A program made the translations under genes and the position numbers. A DNA stretch of 48,471 nt from Candidatus Nomurabacteria bacterium GW2011_GWC2_42_20 (lineage in GTDB: Bacteria; Patescibacteriota; Minisyncoccia; Phycocordibacterales; UBA1550), in assembly GCA_000998425.1 (NCBI GenBank), contig LCDG01000005.1:1-48471 (forward strand). The letters are read 5' to 3'. Positions within the stretch are counted from its first letter, which is position 1. Every line of letters starts with the position of its first letter. Below the pieces are notes generated by a model. That model ran no database searches and was not told the origin of the DNA. It was given only the letters and a program-made list of their open reading frames with translations. Shown here piece after piece: positions 149 to 8,002 of this stretch.

Positions 149-222
149 GGGCGATTAGCTCAGATGGTTAGAGCGTTACATTGACATTGTAAAGGTCGGA
201 GGTTCGATTCCCCCATCGCCCA
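149..222 (+). tRNA. tRNA-Val (anticodon GAC)
   Basis: GGGCGAT acceptor pairs with ATCGCCC; D arm GCTC/GAGC; anticodon loop TTGACAT; T loop TTCGATT; discriminator A. Confidence 0.95.
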
Positions 223-230
223 CAAACATT

Positions 231-452: not shown

Positions 453-866
453 CTACTCGCATGTTCCGTGGTAGCCACACCAGTACGCACGGTCTATGGC
501 GCGACGTTGCTCCTCGCGCATACGATCGGCTTTCCCGCGCGCCTTTGCCGCCTCTACATCCATTCCATACATCGAGTATGAAGGTTGCTGGTAGGAGTAG
601 GAATAGCTGTAAGGATAGTAGTATGTTGGCTGCCCTATACCATATTGTCCAAATTGACGGTTGGACATTCTATCACCAAGGACCGCGCCGATTGATGCAC
701 AGTAACCAATAGCGACCGATCGCCCAACTCCTTGCCCAACATTACTGCAAATTATCCCTCCAGTAAGGCCACCGATCAATGCCCCCTCATCACTTGCATA
801 AACATATGATGGCGTCCCCATTAGAGCAATTACAGTACATGCAAGGCAAATTATTTGCTTTTTCAT
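453..866 (-). CDS. Exported glycine-zipper protein (17 kDa antigen/SlyB-like zipper), Tyr-rich middle
   Basis: ORF start reassigned to MKKQIICLACTVIALMGTPSYVYA (signal peptide) after AAGGAG SD; GALIGGLTGGIICSNVGQGVG..GAVLG glycine-zipper pattern. Confidence 0.65.
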   Translation of the reverse strand: MKKQIICLACTVIALMGTPSYVYASDEGALIGGLTGGIICSNVGQGVGRSVAIGYCASIGAVLGDRMSNRQFGQYGIGQPTYYYPYSYSYSYQQPSYSMYGMDVEAAKARGKADRMREEQRRAIDRAYWCGYHGTCE

Positions 867-1151
867 GATAATTCTCCTTAAATTATCATTGAGCGGGTGC
901 TCAATGTGAAGTGAATCATATTTCAAATTTCTTATTACATCATGCCAAGAATACCTTGGTTTTGTCAAGTGTTCGAATGGAGCATGATTACTGTGCACAC
1001 AGTTGTTATATATTTATGGATACTCTATAATGACATATAGTTTTGAGTTGCTCACGCTATTCGAAATATTTGAAACAATAGTATTGTGAGTAGTGCGGGG
1101 AGTTTTAGTATGTGCATATTAATAATTTATTAGCAAAATATATTTTATAAA

Positions 1152-3449
1152 ATGGATAGTCAAAATTACGAGAAGGATAGTGTTAGTAATGTCCTTAAAT
1201 GGATATTGCTTGGTGTTGCGGTAGTCTCATTCGCTATTCTCGGATGGGCCGCAAAGGTTACATACAGTACAGTGCCTCCGCAGCCTGAAAAGTTTCTCAC
1301 TGAGTTTGGTGAGACTCTCATAACAGGAGATGATATTGTAGCCGGAAAGGGTGGCTTCCAAAAAGCTGGCCTCATGGACTACGGCAGTCTATATGGAATG
1401 GGGTCATACTTTGGTATCGACTACACTGCAGAATATCTGAAGCAGCTTGGTCTAAGGACTTCGGAGAACATAGCAATGCTTCGTTTTGGCCAGCCATATT
1501 CAGTACTTTCAGAGGACAACCAGGAATCGATAAAGAGGGAGATGCGAAGAATGCTCAAAGGTGTCGACCTTACAAAGAGCGAGGTTATTCTTCCTGTTCC
1601 GCTTGCTGATGCTGTTAAAACTATCAGACAGGATATCGTTACATTCCTGCTTACTGACAATCCTGAGATTGGATGGTCGAGAGCACGCGCTCTAAACAAT
1701 GAGACAGCTTTGGAGACCGCCAACTTCTTAATTTATTCATCAATAACAACAGTAGCGCTACGCCCAGATGGTTCTGCTTCATGGACACAGAATTGGCCAT
1801 ATGAACCTCTAGTGGGAAACGCACCTACAACTAGCGCGTTCAACTGGACGTGGATTAGCTACACATTCACATTCCTACTCTTTGGAGCCGTGATTTTTAT
1901 CTACGAACACTGGCTCAATCATCGCGATAATTCTCCTAGAGAGTATAAGATGATCGATTTCCGCCCACTAACACCAAGTCAGCGCAAGGTTGGTAAATAT
2001 TTTATCGTTGTCGGCGCGGTGTTCCTTACCCAGCTTGCGGTTGGTGTACTCATGGCGCACTACTACTCAGAACGTACCAGCTTCTATGGATTTGATATCG
2101 GCGAATACTTGCCATTTAATTTCCTTAGGTCGTTGCACATTCAGACTCCTATCGTTTGGATAGGCCTGTCATGGATCGGTGCTGCCCTCTTCCTTGCCCC
2201 AGTAATGAGCAAGAGAGAAGCAAAGGGTCAAGGTTTCCTGGTTGACCTATTGTTCTGGGTAACACTCTTTGTAGTTGCTGGAGGTATTATCGGTAACTAC
2301 TTGGGTAACATCAATGTAATCGACAAGAACTGGTTCTGGTTTGGCAACCAAGGGTTGTCGTACATTGAGCTTGGGCGCTTCTGGCAGATTGGCTTCTTTG
2401 TTGGACTAGTATCGTGGAGCATTTTAGTGTTCCGTGCATTGTGGCCAGAAAAAGGACTCGCTATGAAGGCTATTCGTGAATTCATTACTGGTAATATTTA
2501 CCTCGAACACCTCCTATGGGCAGCGACACTCAACATCGCTCTCCTATACGCAGCAGGAATGATTCCACTCACTGGAATCGCAAGCTCCTTCTCAATTACA
2601 GACTTTTGGAGATGGTGGGTTGTGCATTTGTGGGTAGAGCAGTCATTTGAGTTCTTCACAGTAGCGGTGAGCGCGTACCTCCTTATGGAGACTGGGTTGG
2701 TTTCTCGTACACTTGCAGAACGCGCAGTATACTTTGAGCTTATTCTCATATTCTTGGGTGGAGTCCTCGGTACTGGACATCACCTATACTGGGTTGGTGC
2801 TGGCTCTATGTGGATTCCTATCGGAAGCATGTTCTCGTTTATCGAGGTCATCCCTCTTGTTCTCTTGGTTATTGAGTCTATCCAGCAGTATCGTCTTATT
2901 CAAGGCACTGGCGGCACATTCAAATACAACCTTGCCTACCTCTTTATTATCGGCGCGGCATTCTGGAACTTCGTAGGCGCTGGTGTATTTGGTGGCGGTC
3001 TAATCAATGCTCCCCTTGTAAACTACTATGAGCACGGTACATTCCTAACTCTCAACCACGCTCACCTCGCACTCTTTGGAGCATTTGGATTGCTAGCAAT
3101 TGGTCTCATCTACTACTGTCTACGTTATGCTGCAGGTGACCACACTCATTTCGATGAAAAGACTGGGTATTGGGCATTCTGGTTGTACAACCTCGGCCTT
3201 GTACTCTGGATGGTTCTAAACTTCCTTCCAATCGGCTTCCCTCAGCTTGCTGCAGTATACGAGCACGGATATGCATTTGCGCGCAGTCTGGAATTCTACA
3301 ACACTACATTACTATGGCAGTGGATGCGAGTCCCTGGTGACGTAGTGTTTGGCGTAGCTGCACTTCTTATGGTTTGGGACTTCTTCAAGAAATTAAAGCC
3401 TGTCTTTAAGGCGCCAGAGCAGACACAAAACGAAGGTTCAACCAACTAA
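1152..3449 (+). CDS. norB: Quinol-dependent nitric oxide reductase, large single-subunit type (qNOR)
   Basis: 765 aa multi-TM heme-copper oxidase superfamily protein; HLWVE, GTGHHLYW, FSFIEVIPL and LNHAHLALFG motifs; N-terminal qNOR-type domain lacking CxxCH. Confidence 0.93.
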   Translation: MDSQNYEKDSVSNVLKWILLGVAVVSFAILGWAAKVTYSTVPPQPEKFLTEFGETLITGDDIVAGKGGFQKAGLMDYGSLYGMGSYFGIDYTAEYLKQLGLRTSENIAMLRFGQPYSVLSEDNQESIKREMRRMLKGVDLTKSEVILPVPLADAVKTIRQDIVTFLLTDNPEIGWSRARALNNETALETANFLIYSSITTVALRPDGSASWTQNWPYEPLVGNAPTTSAFNWTWISYTFTFLLFGAVIFIYEHWLNHRDNSPREYKMIDFRPLTPSQRKVGKYFIVVGAVFLTQLAVGVLMAHYYSERTSFYGFDIGEYLPFNFLRSLHIQTPIVWIGLSWIGAALFLAPVMSKREAKGQGFLVDLLFWVTLFVVAGGIIGNYLGNINVIDKNWFWFGNQGLSYIELGRFWQIGFFVGLVSWSILVFRALWPEKGLAMKAIREFITGNIYLEHLLWAATLNIALLYAAGMIPLTGIASSFSITDFWRWWVVHLWVEQSFEFFTVAVSAYLLMETGLVSRTLAERAVYFELILIFLGGVLGTGHHLYWVGAGSMWIPIGSMFSFIEVIPLVLLVIESIQQYRLIQGTGGTFKYNLAYLFIIGAAFWNFVGAGVFGGGLINAPLVNYYEHGTFLTLNHAHLALFGAFGLLAIGLIYYCLRYAAGDHTHFDEKTGYWAFWLYNLGLVLWMVLNFLPIGFPQLAAVYEHGYAFARSLEFYNTTLLWQWMRVPGDVVFGVAALLMVWDFFKKLKPVFKAPEQTQNEGSTN

Positions 3450-3537: not shown

Positions 3538-3951
3538 ATGGAAAAAGACAACATACAATCGTCGCCTGCCACAAAGCACCCCCACTACTACGGGAATTTG
3601 ATCAGAAAGCAACTCTTTTTTGCGGCATTTGTAATAATGATTGCAGCGCTTATCGACAGCGAGCTTCGAAACTTTTATCTTTTTATAGGGCTTTTTGGGG
3701 TAGTTGGATTTACGATACTTGCTGGACTCACTAGTCCACAGAAAAGAGGGATTATGTTCACAGATGTGCTTGTGTCTTCATTCATGTTTCTAATCTTCGA
3801 ATACTTTGCAATCAGCGCATTTATTCGATATGAGGATTTTTCGGATCCAGTATTTTTCTTTCGACAATTGATAGCTGTTATTTATCTCGTTATATTGTAT
3901 TACAGCACAAAGACACTTCGATACTATGATGATGCAGAGGGCCACAAATAA
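3538..3951 (+). CDS. Hypothetical multi-TM membrane protein
   Basis: 137 aa ORF with about four hydrophobic segments. Confidence 0.7.
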   Translation: MEKDNIQSSPATKHPHYYGNLIRKQLFFAAFVIMIAALIDSELRNFYLFIGLFGVVGFTILAGLTSPQKRGIMFTDVLVSSFMFLIFEYFAISAFIRYEDFSDPVFFFRQLIAVIYLVILYYSTKTLRYYDDAEGHK

Positions 3952-4381: not shown

Positions 4382-4414
4382 ACAGTCTATTTGCTTTCTG
4401 GTATAGTCCCACAT

Positions 4415-5650
4415 ATGAGAATTCTCGCTATTGAAACCAGCTGTGACGAGACAGGAATTGCAATCCTAGAAACAACGGGTGCCCTCGGCGCCATTTCTCC
4501 ACGTGCGCAGATAAAAGTCCTTGCTGATGTGCTTGTTTCGCAGGCAAGCATCCACGCCGAATTTGGCGGTGTCTTCCCTGCTCTAGCGCGACGCGAGCAC
4601 GCAAAAAACATGATGCCACTCATCATTAGGGCACTCAGTGAAGCAGATCTTTTGCGACCACAACAAAGCGTGCGCATTCTTCACACAAAGGAAAAAGAGA
4701 CCCTCGAAAAAATTTTTTACAAGGAACCAGAACTTTTTGAGGCATTTAAAACAGCACTTCTAGACATCAGCATCCCTGACATTGATGCTATTGCGGTGAC
4801 TTCTGGTCCTGGACTCGAGCCAGCTCTTTGGGTCGGCATCAACACTGCCGAGGCTCTTGGCACACTGTGGGGCGTCCCAGTCATACCGGTGAATCACATG
4901 GAGGGACATATCGTCGCTTCGCTACTTACACACAAGTCTACAACAGACGGCAAGAAAAATTTTGCGCTGGCATCGCTCCACTACCCTGCTCTCACGCTCC
5001 TCATTTCTGGTGGGCATACGGAGCTTGTACTCATGGCGCGGGCAGGAACCTATGAAGTCCTAGGGCAAACACGCGATGACGCAGTTGGAGAGGCATTCGA
5101 TAAAGTTGCGCGCATGCTCGGCCTAGCCTACCCTGGTGGGCCAGAAATTTCGAAGCTTGCTGAGCAGGTACCTACAGGTAAAAAACTTATAGACCCACTC
5201 CCACGTCCCATGCTCTCCTCTAAAAACTTTGATTTTTCATTTTCAGGACTCAAAACTTCTGTGCTATACGCAATCAAAAAAATTCCATCCATTACTCCTG
5301 AAATGAAGGCTATCATCGCTAAGGATTTTGAGGATTCTGTTACAGAAGTCCTTGTTGCAAAAACCCTCGCCGCAGCAAAGAAATACAATGTATATGAAAT
5401 CATATTAGGCGGCGGGGTAAGCGCCAACAAGAAGATTCGTGCGGCCTTCATCAATGCCGTTCGCCGCGAGCTCCCTGGTGTCACACTTTTCCTACCTGAC
5501 CAAAAACTTTCCACGGACAATGGCCTCATGATTGGCGTAGCGGGACTTTTACGCTCAAGCAAAGTCGCAAAGAAAATAATTGCCGAGGGTCATCTCTGCC
5601 TCTCTCAAAATTCCAGACCAACACTTGCGGAACTGAGGAAGAGGAAGTAA
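4415..5650 (+). CDS. tsaD: tRNA N6-adenosine threonylcarbamoyltransferase
   Basis: MRILAIETSCDETGIAIL, HMEGHI, ISGGHTELV, GGGVSAN motifs; insertion after about residue 75. Confidence 0.95.
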   Translation: MRILAIETSCDETGIAILETTGALGAISPRAQIKVLADVLVSQASIHAEFGGVFPALARREHAKNMMPLIIRALSEADLLRPQQSVRILHTKEKETLEKIFYKEPELFEAFKTALLDISIPDIDAIAVTSGPGLEPALWVGINTAEALGTLWGVPVIPVNHMEGHIVASLLTHKSTTDGKKNFALASLHYPALTLLISGGHTELVLMARAGTYEVLGQTRDDAVGEAFDKVARMLGLAYPGGPEISKLAEQVPTGKKLIDPLPRPMLSSKNFDFSFSGLKTSVLYAIKKIPSITPEMKAIIAKDFEDSVTEVLVAKTLAAAKKYNVYEIILGGGVSANKKIRAAFINAVRRELPGVTLFLPDQKLSTDNGLMIGVAGLLRSSKVAKKIIAEGHLCLSQNSRPTLAELRKRK

Positions 5651-5857: not shown

Positions 5858-8002
5858 ATGACAACTATTCCTGAAAAACTTACGAAACCCTACGAGCCGG
5901 CAAATACCGAGTCTCGCATATATAAACTCTGGGAAGAGAGCGGTTTTTTTAATCCAGACAACCTTCCCGAGAGGCATAAGGAACCTTTCACTATTATTAT
6001 GCCACCGCCAAATGCGAACGGACGTCTCCACGCAGGTCACGGGCTCACAATAGCACTAGAGGATATTATGACTCGCTACCAACGCATGCAGGGCAAAAAA
6101 GCCCTCTGGGTACCAGGAGCAGACCATGCGGGTTTTGAAACACAGGTAGTATACGAAAAGAAACTTGAAAAAGAAGGGCGCTCGCGTTTCAAGATGGATC
6201 GCAAGGAACTCTACGATGAAATTATGGCATTTACGCTTGAGAGTAAAAAACATATGGAGGCAGATGTGAAGGCTCTCGGCGCATCGTGTGACTGGTCGCG
6301 CGAAAAATTCACACTGGATCCAAATGTTGTTTCTGAAGTTCAGGAAACATTTCGCAAGCTCTATCGTGACGGACTTGTGTACCGCGGTTATCGCACCGTA
6401 AACTGGTGTACAAAACACCAGACATCACTTTCTGACGTTGAGACGGAGAATGTAGAAAAAGCTGACAAGCTGTATTACATAAAATACGGGCCGTTCGTCG
6501 TTGCCACTGTGCGCCCTGAAACTATTTTTGGTGATGTAGCGATTGCTGTCAATCCTAGTGATGCGCGCTATAAAAATTTCATTGGGCAAACAATAGAAGT
6601 ACAGCATCCGGAAAATAAATTATCACTCATTGTTATTGGGGATGAAGAAGTAGACCCAGAATTTGGCACCGGCGCGCTCAAAATTACTCCTGCACACGAC
6701 CACAATGACTTCCGTATGTCAGAAACGCACAAGCTACCTCGCATAGAGGTCATTGACCAATTTGGAAAGCTTAATGAAAAAACTGGAAAGTACGCCGGAA
6801 TGAAAATTGCAGATGCTCGTACTAAAGTGGTAGAGGATTTGCAAGCGCTCGGACTTATTGAAAAAATTGAAGACTACACGCACACTGTACCAACATGCTA
6901 CAAATGTAGTACGACGATTGAACCTCGCGTGATGCCACAGTGGTTTGTAAAAATGGCGCCTCTCGCAAAACTTGCAGGAGACGCCGTACGTGATGGAAAA
7001 GTTAAATTCATTCCCGACAACTTTGAGAAGATATTTTTGTACTGGATGGACAATACGATAGACTGGAACATCTCGCGCCAGATTGTGTGGGGTATTCAAA
7101 TTCCCGCGCTCATTTGCGCTCATTGCAACGCTGGAGCGCTGGACACAGAGCACAAAGAAGGTGGCGCATGCCCTACCTGTGGCAAGCCTTTGAGTACAGA
7201 AACGGACACCTTTGATACTTGGTTTTCATCTGGTCAGTGGCCACTTTTGGCTTTAGGATACCCTGAGAAGGCTGATTTGGGCTTCTACCCAACAGATGTT
7301 ATGGAAACCGGCCGAGACCTTATTTTCAAATGGGTGCCTCGTATGGTCATTTTTGGGCTTTACATAGCCAAGCAGGTTCCTTTTCATAATGTGTACATGC
7401 ACGGCATGGTGAACGACAAGCTTGGTAAAAAAATGTCTAAAAGCAAGGGGAATGTTGTCTCCCCTATTGAGCTCACCGACAAATACGGCGCCGATGCGCT
7501 CCGTATTGGGCTCGTGATTGGCAACACTCCAGGAAATGATATCGCTCTAGCCGAAGACAAAATAAAAGGATACAAGCATTTCTGTAATAAAATTTGGAAC
7601 GCGACACGTTTTGTTCTCACCAATATTGGCGACACAACTCTCGACACACCTAGACCTGCGCTAATCCCACGCGACGAGGAAATTCTTGCGGAATTTAACA
7701 CCGCACTCACAAGCATCACCTCACACTATGAAAACTTCCGCTTCCACCTCGCCGGGGAGGAACTCTACCATTACTTCTGGAATACGTTCGCTGACATAAT
7801 TATTGAAGAGATGAAGCCGCGTCTAGTTGGCAACGACCAAACCTCAAGAAATGGAGCGCAGTGGGTGCTTCTTCAAATTCTCTCTGCAAACATAAAAATG
7901 TTACACCCTTTCATCCCATTCATTACTGAGGAAATTTGGGGCATACTACCAAGAGAACAGAAATCACTTCTCATTATAGAACCATGGCCGAAACCATTTT
8001 AA
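5858..8002 (+). CDS. valS: Valyl-tRNA synthetase
   Basis: PPPNANGRLHAGHGL, GADHAGFETQ, Zn-finger CxxC pair, KMSKSKGNV; ends without the usual C-terminal coiled coil. Confidence 0.95.
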   Translation: MTTIPEKLTKPYEPANTESRIYKLWEESGFFNPDNLPERHKEPFTIIMPPPNANGRLHAGHGLTIALEDIMTRYQRMQGKKALWVPGADHAGFETQVVYEKKLEKEGRSRFKMDRKELYDEIMAFTLESKKHMEADVKALGASCDWSREKFTLDPNVVSEVQETFRKLYRDGLVYRGYRTVNWCTKHQTSLSDVETENVEKADKLYYIKYGPFVVATVRPETIFGDVAIAVNPSDARYKNFIGQTIEVQHPENKLSLIVIGDEEVDPEFGTGALKITPAHDHNDFRMSETHKLPRIEVIDQFGKLNEKTGKYAGMKIADARTKVVEDLQALGLIEKIEDYTHTVPTCYKCSTTIEPRVMPQWFVKMAPLAKLAGDAVRDGKVKFIPDNFEKIFLYWMDNTIDWNISRQIVWGIQIPALICAHCNAGALDTEHKEGGACPTCGKPLSTETDTFDTWFSSGQWPLLALGYPEKADLGFYPTDVMETGRDLIFKWVPRMVIFGLYIAKQVPFHNVYMHGMVNDKLGKKMSKSKGNVVSPIELTDKYGADALRIGLVIGNTPGNDIALAEDKIKGYKHFCNKIWNATRFVLTNIGDTTLDTPRPALIPRDEEILAEFNTALTSITSHYENFRFHLAGEELYHYFWNTFADIIIEEMKPRLVGNDQTSRNGAQWVLLQILSANIKMLHPFIPFITEEIWGILPREQKSLLIIEPWPKPF

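Follow-up and report, generated by a model that had tools for sequence, protein, structure and literature searches.

The window, that is, the whole stretch of 48,471 nucleotides analysed here, is contig C5 of a 678,769 bp assembly rated 92.6% complete. Beyond the window, this assembly was covered by family searches and by selected stretches. An open reading frame at 1152-3449 (+), which starts with ATG and encodes 765 aa, was found to be a complete gene for a quinol-dependent NO reductase (qNOR/NorZ), and is called norZ below. The features of the locus are as follows:

149..223, + strand: tRNA-Val(gac), in the tRNA cluster bordering the norZ insertion site in relatives
1002..1151, + strand: non-coding norZ leader, alignable with orthologues, with a conserved TATAAT/TATACT-like box as putative promoter
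1152..3449, + strand: norZ
1284..1802, + strand: qNOR N-terminal domain, cytochrome-c-like and periplasmic (PF22085); no CxxCH; from Pfam and motif scan
3538..3951, + strand: conserved 4-TM membrane protein, family unassigned, directly 3′ of norZ
4391..5650, + strand: TsaD-like housekeeping gene, named by inspection, syntenic flank
5858..8002, + strand: valyl-tRNA synthetase-like housekeeping gene, named by inspection, syntenic flank

A partly conserved part of the leader (1040-1110) carries short inverted CTCAC/GTGAG elements together with the TATAAT-like box and may be a regulatory site; a search of the leader for regulator sites identified none. Between tRNA-Val and norZ, a small glycine-zipper protein (Rick_17kDa_Anti-like) is encoded at 453-998 (-), and among the loci compared it was seen in this genome only.

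The norZ product matched COX1 (2e-56, residues 280-732) and NorB_cytochrome_c-like PF22085 (3e-34, residues 45-217) in Pfam, and has a one-chain design with an N-terminal cytochrome-c-like domain fused to a NorB-type HCO core; the NCBIfam search gave no match. When the PDB was searched by sequence, the best match was Geobacillus stearothermophilus qNOR (GsqNOR; 3ayf, E 1e-140, residues 10-758), with an alignment of 749 residues, and the qNORs of N. meningitidis (NmqNOR) and A. xylosoxidans (AxqNOR) scored about 1e-115. Matches to cNOR, at 1e-31 to 1e-35, were more than 80 orders of magnitude weaker than those to qNOR. The protein holds no CxxCH heme-c motif and a single Cys, at 656. Given the fused N-domain without CxxCH and the far weaker cNOR matches, a cNOR (NorBC) was rejected. 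A simple hydropathy scan gave 13 segments, versus the 14 transmembrane helices of qNOR. A full-length qNOR with a long N-terminal domain and no heme-c CxxCH had been proposed in the sequence-only reading, and Pfam, the PDB alignment and the motif scan agree with it, indicating that the norZ product is an intact qNOR as far as its sequence tells.

Residues were mapped through alignment to 3ayf together with structural papers (PMC6713497, PMC10256718, PMC3413370), and the corresponding columns were counted in orthologues and relatives. The motifs noted earlier were all found, HLWVE at residues 492-496, GHH at 542-544, IEVIPL at 564-569 and NHAHLALFG at 635-643, and are invariant in six Yonathbacteria orthologues. 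The mapped segments are:

2058..2084, + strand: quinol-site segment with H303 (Gs H328), E307 (Gs E332) and F311 (Gs F336); 3ayf alignment, PMC3413370, PMC10256718
2625..2651, + strand: FeB-site segment HLWVEQSFE with FeB ligand H492, E496 (Gs E512) and E500 (Ax E494, proton path); alignment, PMC6713497
2778..2783, + strand: FeB ligands H543-H544 (Gs H559/H560); alignment
2844..2846, + strand: catalytic-site glutamate E565 (Gs E581, Ax E559); alignment
3057..3065, + strand: heme b3 ligand H636 and heme b ligand H638; alignment
3327..3341, + strand: quinol-site R726 (Gs R742) and D730 (Gs D746); alignment, PMC10256718

H329, a further heme ligand, is kept beside H636 and H638. The three FeB histidines, the heme b/b3 histidines and the equivalents of Gs E512/E581 and Ax E494 did not vary among the 6 CPR and 72 further sequences compared. 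Loss of an essential FeB or heme ligand, named in the sequence-only reading as an outcome that would refute it, was not seen on alignment, the ligand and glutamate residues being all kept. At the quinol site, H303, E307, F311, R726 and D730 are kept as well, with Asp in place of E307 in two of the six CPR orthologues and the rest invariant. The single-chain architecture, FeB/heme ligands, catalytic glutamates, quinol-site H/E/R/D and Ca-site G/Y/E are common to GsqNOR (3ayf/3ayg), NmqNOR (6l3h), AxqNOR (8bgw) and the norZ product, whereas the latter differs in having HLWVEQ for HLWVEG, Phe645 at the position of Ax Tyr638 and Asp484 at that of Ax Glu478. These three differences are common to essentially all 72 proteobacterial relatives, indicating that they are subfamily traits and not CPR changes or decay. 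Because NO dismutases (Nods), enzymes that form N2 and O2 and need no quinol, are closely paralogous to qNOR and share its architecture, the norZ product could be taken for one. However, in Nods one coordinating His is replaced by Asn, the catalytic Glu by Gln, and the quinol site is lost (PMC3413370), and at all these diagnostic positions the norZ product is of the qNOR type, with His, Glu and quinol site intact, which makes a Nod extremely improbable.

The relatives carrying orthologues are named Candidatus Yonathbacteria and Parcubacteria GW2011_GWA1_47_8 (Parcubacteria group); these names, together with the size and completeness of the source assembly, bear out its earlier description as CPR-like, and the bearer of norZ is probably a tiny, host-dependent bacterium. 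qNOR was found in 7 of the 16 genus genomes (the source and six other species), with orthologues 80-91% identical; 84 genomes sampled from the order's other genera had none. An even sample of the phylum yielded the qNOR N-domain in 2 of 389 genomes, both of the present genus. From these counts, qNOR appears nearly absent from other CPR outside the genus. Pairwise dN/dS of norZ orthologues ranged from 0.035 to 0.09, about 0.05, in pairs with unsaturated dS, indicating that norZ is under strong purifying selection in the genus.

The inheritance of norZ was read from a tree built on the top 80 loci that two peptide patterns retrieved; this tree held no reference sequences of eNOR or other NOR families. 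The CPR sequences formed one clade (SH-aLRT 100) and all other members were Pseudomonadota, the level to which the donor group was resolved; the highest non-CPR identity to the norZ product was 67%, over the full length. The nesting of the CPR clade among Pseudomonadota indicates that norZ was gained by old horizontal transfer, and this phylogeny, together with the dN/dS values, argues that it is an old, selected acquisition from that phylum. The common ancestor of a Candidatus Yonathbacteria clade would have gained the gene at a tRNA-flanked site, and purifying selection would then have kept it.

Conserved synteny was observed around norZ. The downstream order norZ - 4-TM (TM137) - TsaD - ValS is common to five relatives, whose MAGs were assembled independently (UBA11698, RIFCSPHIGHO2, CG17, NC_groundwater and G003); the G011 copy lies on a short contig and is flanked differently. 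The upstream flank in G005 and G009 reads FtsZ - TrxR - PrmC - tRNA-Val/Ser/Glu - norZ. The counterparts in the source genome (tRNA-Ser, tRNA-Glu, PrmC, TrxR and FtsZ) are on contig C17, and the C17 end bearing tRNA-Ser, tRNA-Glu and PrmC would adjoin the tRNA-Val at the window start; compared with relatives, the tRNA group is locally inverted. On C17, the thioredoxin reductase ORF (L030:2526-3141) is interrupted by a stretch of Ns, either masked bases or a gap. G014 lacks norZ but shows these flanks too; between its tRNA-Glu and its 4-TM gene lie genes for a YgjP-like protease and for an ABC transporter. This indicates that norZ occupies a variable site beside tRNA genes. The 4-TM gene occurs without norZ in both G014 and G008, which marks it as a native neighbour that norZ does not require; with its absence from norZ-bearing G011, this ruled it out as a dedicated, obligatory NOR partner.

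The closest non-CPR relatives of the norZ product are Pseudomonadota and the contig starts only about 1.1 kb from norZ, as might be the case if contamination or misassembly had joined a proteobacterial fragment to a CPR contig. However, six other Yonathbacteria genomes carry an orthologue, five of them with the TM137-TsaD-ValS flank in independent assemblies. The CPR clade is also deep, with a stem branch of 0.53, the full SH-aLRT support given above and ≤67% identity to any proteobacterial copy, and the left end of the window would abut C17 as in relatives, local inversion aside. Because the synteny is conserved, the chimera reading is refuted and keeps practically no probability. Origin of norZ in a different organism, raised in the sequence-only reading as a possible objection, fails with it, the norZ locus recurring in independently assembled species.

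The NO reductase had been described as stand-alone, which proved incorrect: the source genome also encodes, elsewhere (L028:7878-12589), a cyoABCDE operon for a bo3-type quinol oxidase, and this oxidase co-occurs with qNOR across the genus. CyoB scored 1101.8 bits, above the NCBIfam equivalog cut-off of 1020.4; CyoE was above the heme o synthase cut-off, cyoC and cyoD were above their Pfam cut-offs, and CyoA (263.6) was just below its cut-off of 266.2. The best PDB match of CyoB was E. coli cytochrome bo3 (1fft, 8f68), full length, at E 1e-292. The cyoABCDE order of E. coli is kept in the source genome, whereas cyoA and cyoB are split in G002, G005 and G011. Gene content placed norZ and cyoB together in 6 genomes, norZ only in 1 (G009), cyoB only in 1 (G002) and neither in 8 (Fisher p = 0.009, n=16 genus genomes, the test treating related genomes as independent).

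Several observations were made around the cyo loci. The splits in G002, G005 and G011 consist of large unrelated genes between cyoA and cyoB (L150:1160-6169, L152:8589-13701 and L148:4854-8889), an unusual insertion; the one in G005 includes a gene with NosD/beta-helix and C39-peptidase-like domains, and that in G002 a gene with a weak NHL-repeat match. A DoxX-family membrane protein is encoded directly upstream of cyoA in the source genome only (L028:7357-7824), and was rejected as the missing quinone reductase because it precedes cyoA in this genome alone among the cyo loci compared. At a Yonathbacteria contig end in G009 (G009:C12:21260-22400; L154:7264-8399), a CtaB-like gene and a COX15/CtaA fragment represent heme A pathway genes otherwise unseen in the genus, and the contig end is possibly misjoined. 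This CtaB-like gene also resembles CyoE but shares only 34% identity with the CyoE of the genus; given this and its place beside the CtaA fragment at the contig end, it was not taken as proof of a cyo operon in G009. CueO/CopA-like multicopper oxidases were seen in L140 and L141 (G010:C2 and G002:C23), with cyo on the same contigs. NirK (TIGR02376, above cut-off) was found in G001, G011 and G013, and NirK-like sequences were recognised by inspection in G007 and G008; G011 and G013 encode NirK, qNOR and Cyo. A check of the source genome for NirK gave no match to Cu-oxidase_3.

Cofactor genes were sought with marker families, two for heme and one for quinone prenyltransferase. Ferrochelatase and HemB had no match in any of the 16 genus genomes (16/16), one of which, UBA11698, is rated 100% complete. 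UbiA-family matches were confined to the seven cyo genomes, in or near the cyo locus (that of the source genome scored as heme O synthase), and to G009, where the match adjoins the CtaA fragment. A quinone prenyltransferase was not recognised, the UbiA homologues in genus genomes being only of the heme O synthase type. NDH-2 was not recognised either: the Pyr_redox_2 matches in the examined genomes, sorted by family match or size, were thioredoxin reductase or HI0933-like, with a few sub-threshold. Family matches ruled out the HI0933-like flavoprotein on contig C8 and the thioredoxin reductase on C17 as NDH-2. The NADH-to-quinone link is likewise without known route in UBA1550 (PMC12931201). 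With no heme synthesis, quinone synthesis or NDH-2 recognised, scavenging of heme and quinol is probable, as had been suggested earlier, and on these gene absences heme b and quinol(s) would most likely be taken from the host or neighbours.

Sequence shows what the enzyme is, which residues it keeps, how it was inherited, that it co-occurs with cyo and which cofactor genes are absent; we infer the activity of norZ, the scavenging of its cofactors and its physiological role as follows. Electrons from quinol would enter the membrane qNOR at the H303/E307/R726/D730 site and travel via heme b to the heme b3-FeB centre, where 2 NO would be converted to N2O. qNOR and bo3 (cyoABCDE) would act as two alternative quinol oxidases, for NO and O2, respectively; the likely benefit of qNOR would be NO removal and reductant disposal, and cyo would contribute proton pumping whenever there is O2. 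A working qNOR that runs on scavenged heme and quinol and is paired with the bo3 oxidase for these ends is the reading that we consider likely. On the other hand, the main role of qNOR might be to shield a host or partner (e.g. comammox Nitrospira) from NO, rather than to serve energy or redox balance in the cell itself. A UBA1550-Nitrospira network association and co-expression were reported (PMC12931201), and the norZ cell presumably relies on its host for heme and quinol. However, the reported link is one of association, some norZ genomes were recovered from groundwater, where no host was identified, and a benefit to the epibiont itself accounts equally well for the retention of norZ; host protection as the main role is therefore rather doubtful. 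It is much less probable still that, lacking quinol or heme, the cell produces an apoprotein with little activity and keeps it for another purpose, such as NO or heme binding; heme and quinone synthesis and an NDH-2-type NADH:quinone oxidoreductase were indeed not recognised, but the catalytic and quinol-site residues are all conserved, dN/dS is about 0.05, and qNOR is retained together with a second quinol oxidase and the heme O synthase of that oxidase.

qNOR was reported together with CyoABCD in 19 genomes of the Patescibacteriota genus UBA1550 (PMC12931201, Adv Sci, December 2025). The predicted structure of that qNOR has a TM-score of 0.955 to 8BGW, and Patescibacteriota norB was co-expressed with comammox genes in metatranscriptomes (PMC12931201). 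As here, the genus described there belongs to the Paceibacteria, encodes CyoABCD and lacks a classical electron transport chain, and norB was enriched in it alone; a role for comammox Nitrospira was proposed in the same paper. The bo3 oxidase was also found in UBA1550 single-cell genomes (PMC12361377). The central finding, qNOR with Cyo, is already in print for UBA1550, which is almost certainly the same genus as here, judging from a combination of traits that only these two share, and the novelty implied by the first reading was overstated. Moreover, an NO reductase was described in a Parcubacterium in 2017 (PMC5220378), alike in being a heme-copper superfamily NO reductase in a CPR genome; that organism differs in also having NDH-2, complex II, a cytochrome b-Rieske complex and multiheme cytochromes, and the figure legend there names NorBC. 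The qNOR trait is real and unusual for such bacteria, and the present work confirms a recently published trait. New here are the transfer origin, the tRNA-flanked insertion site, the genus-wide gaps in cofactor genes and NirK in two qNOR-bearing relatives.

NirK and qNOR would carry nitrite to N2O in these two relatives, and qNOR would make norZ-bearing cells N2O producers. Tentatively, and with less confidence than in a working qNOR, an ultra-reduced CPR epibiont may have a minimal respiration composed of just two alternative quinol oxidases, bo3 (O2) and qNOR (NO), in effect tapping the quinol pool of a host that supplies all of its heme and quinol. With an NO reductase kept in cells in which no synthesis of heme or quinone and no quinone reductase could be recognised, the sharing of cofactors and electrons by CPR bacteria and their hosts becomes open to direct test.
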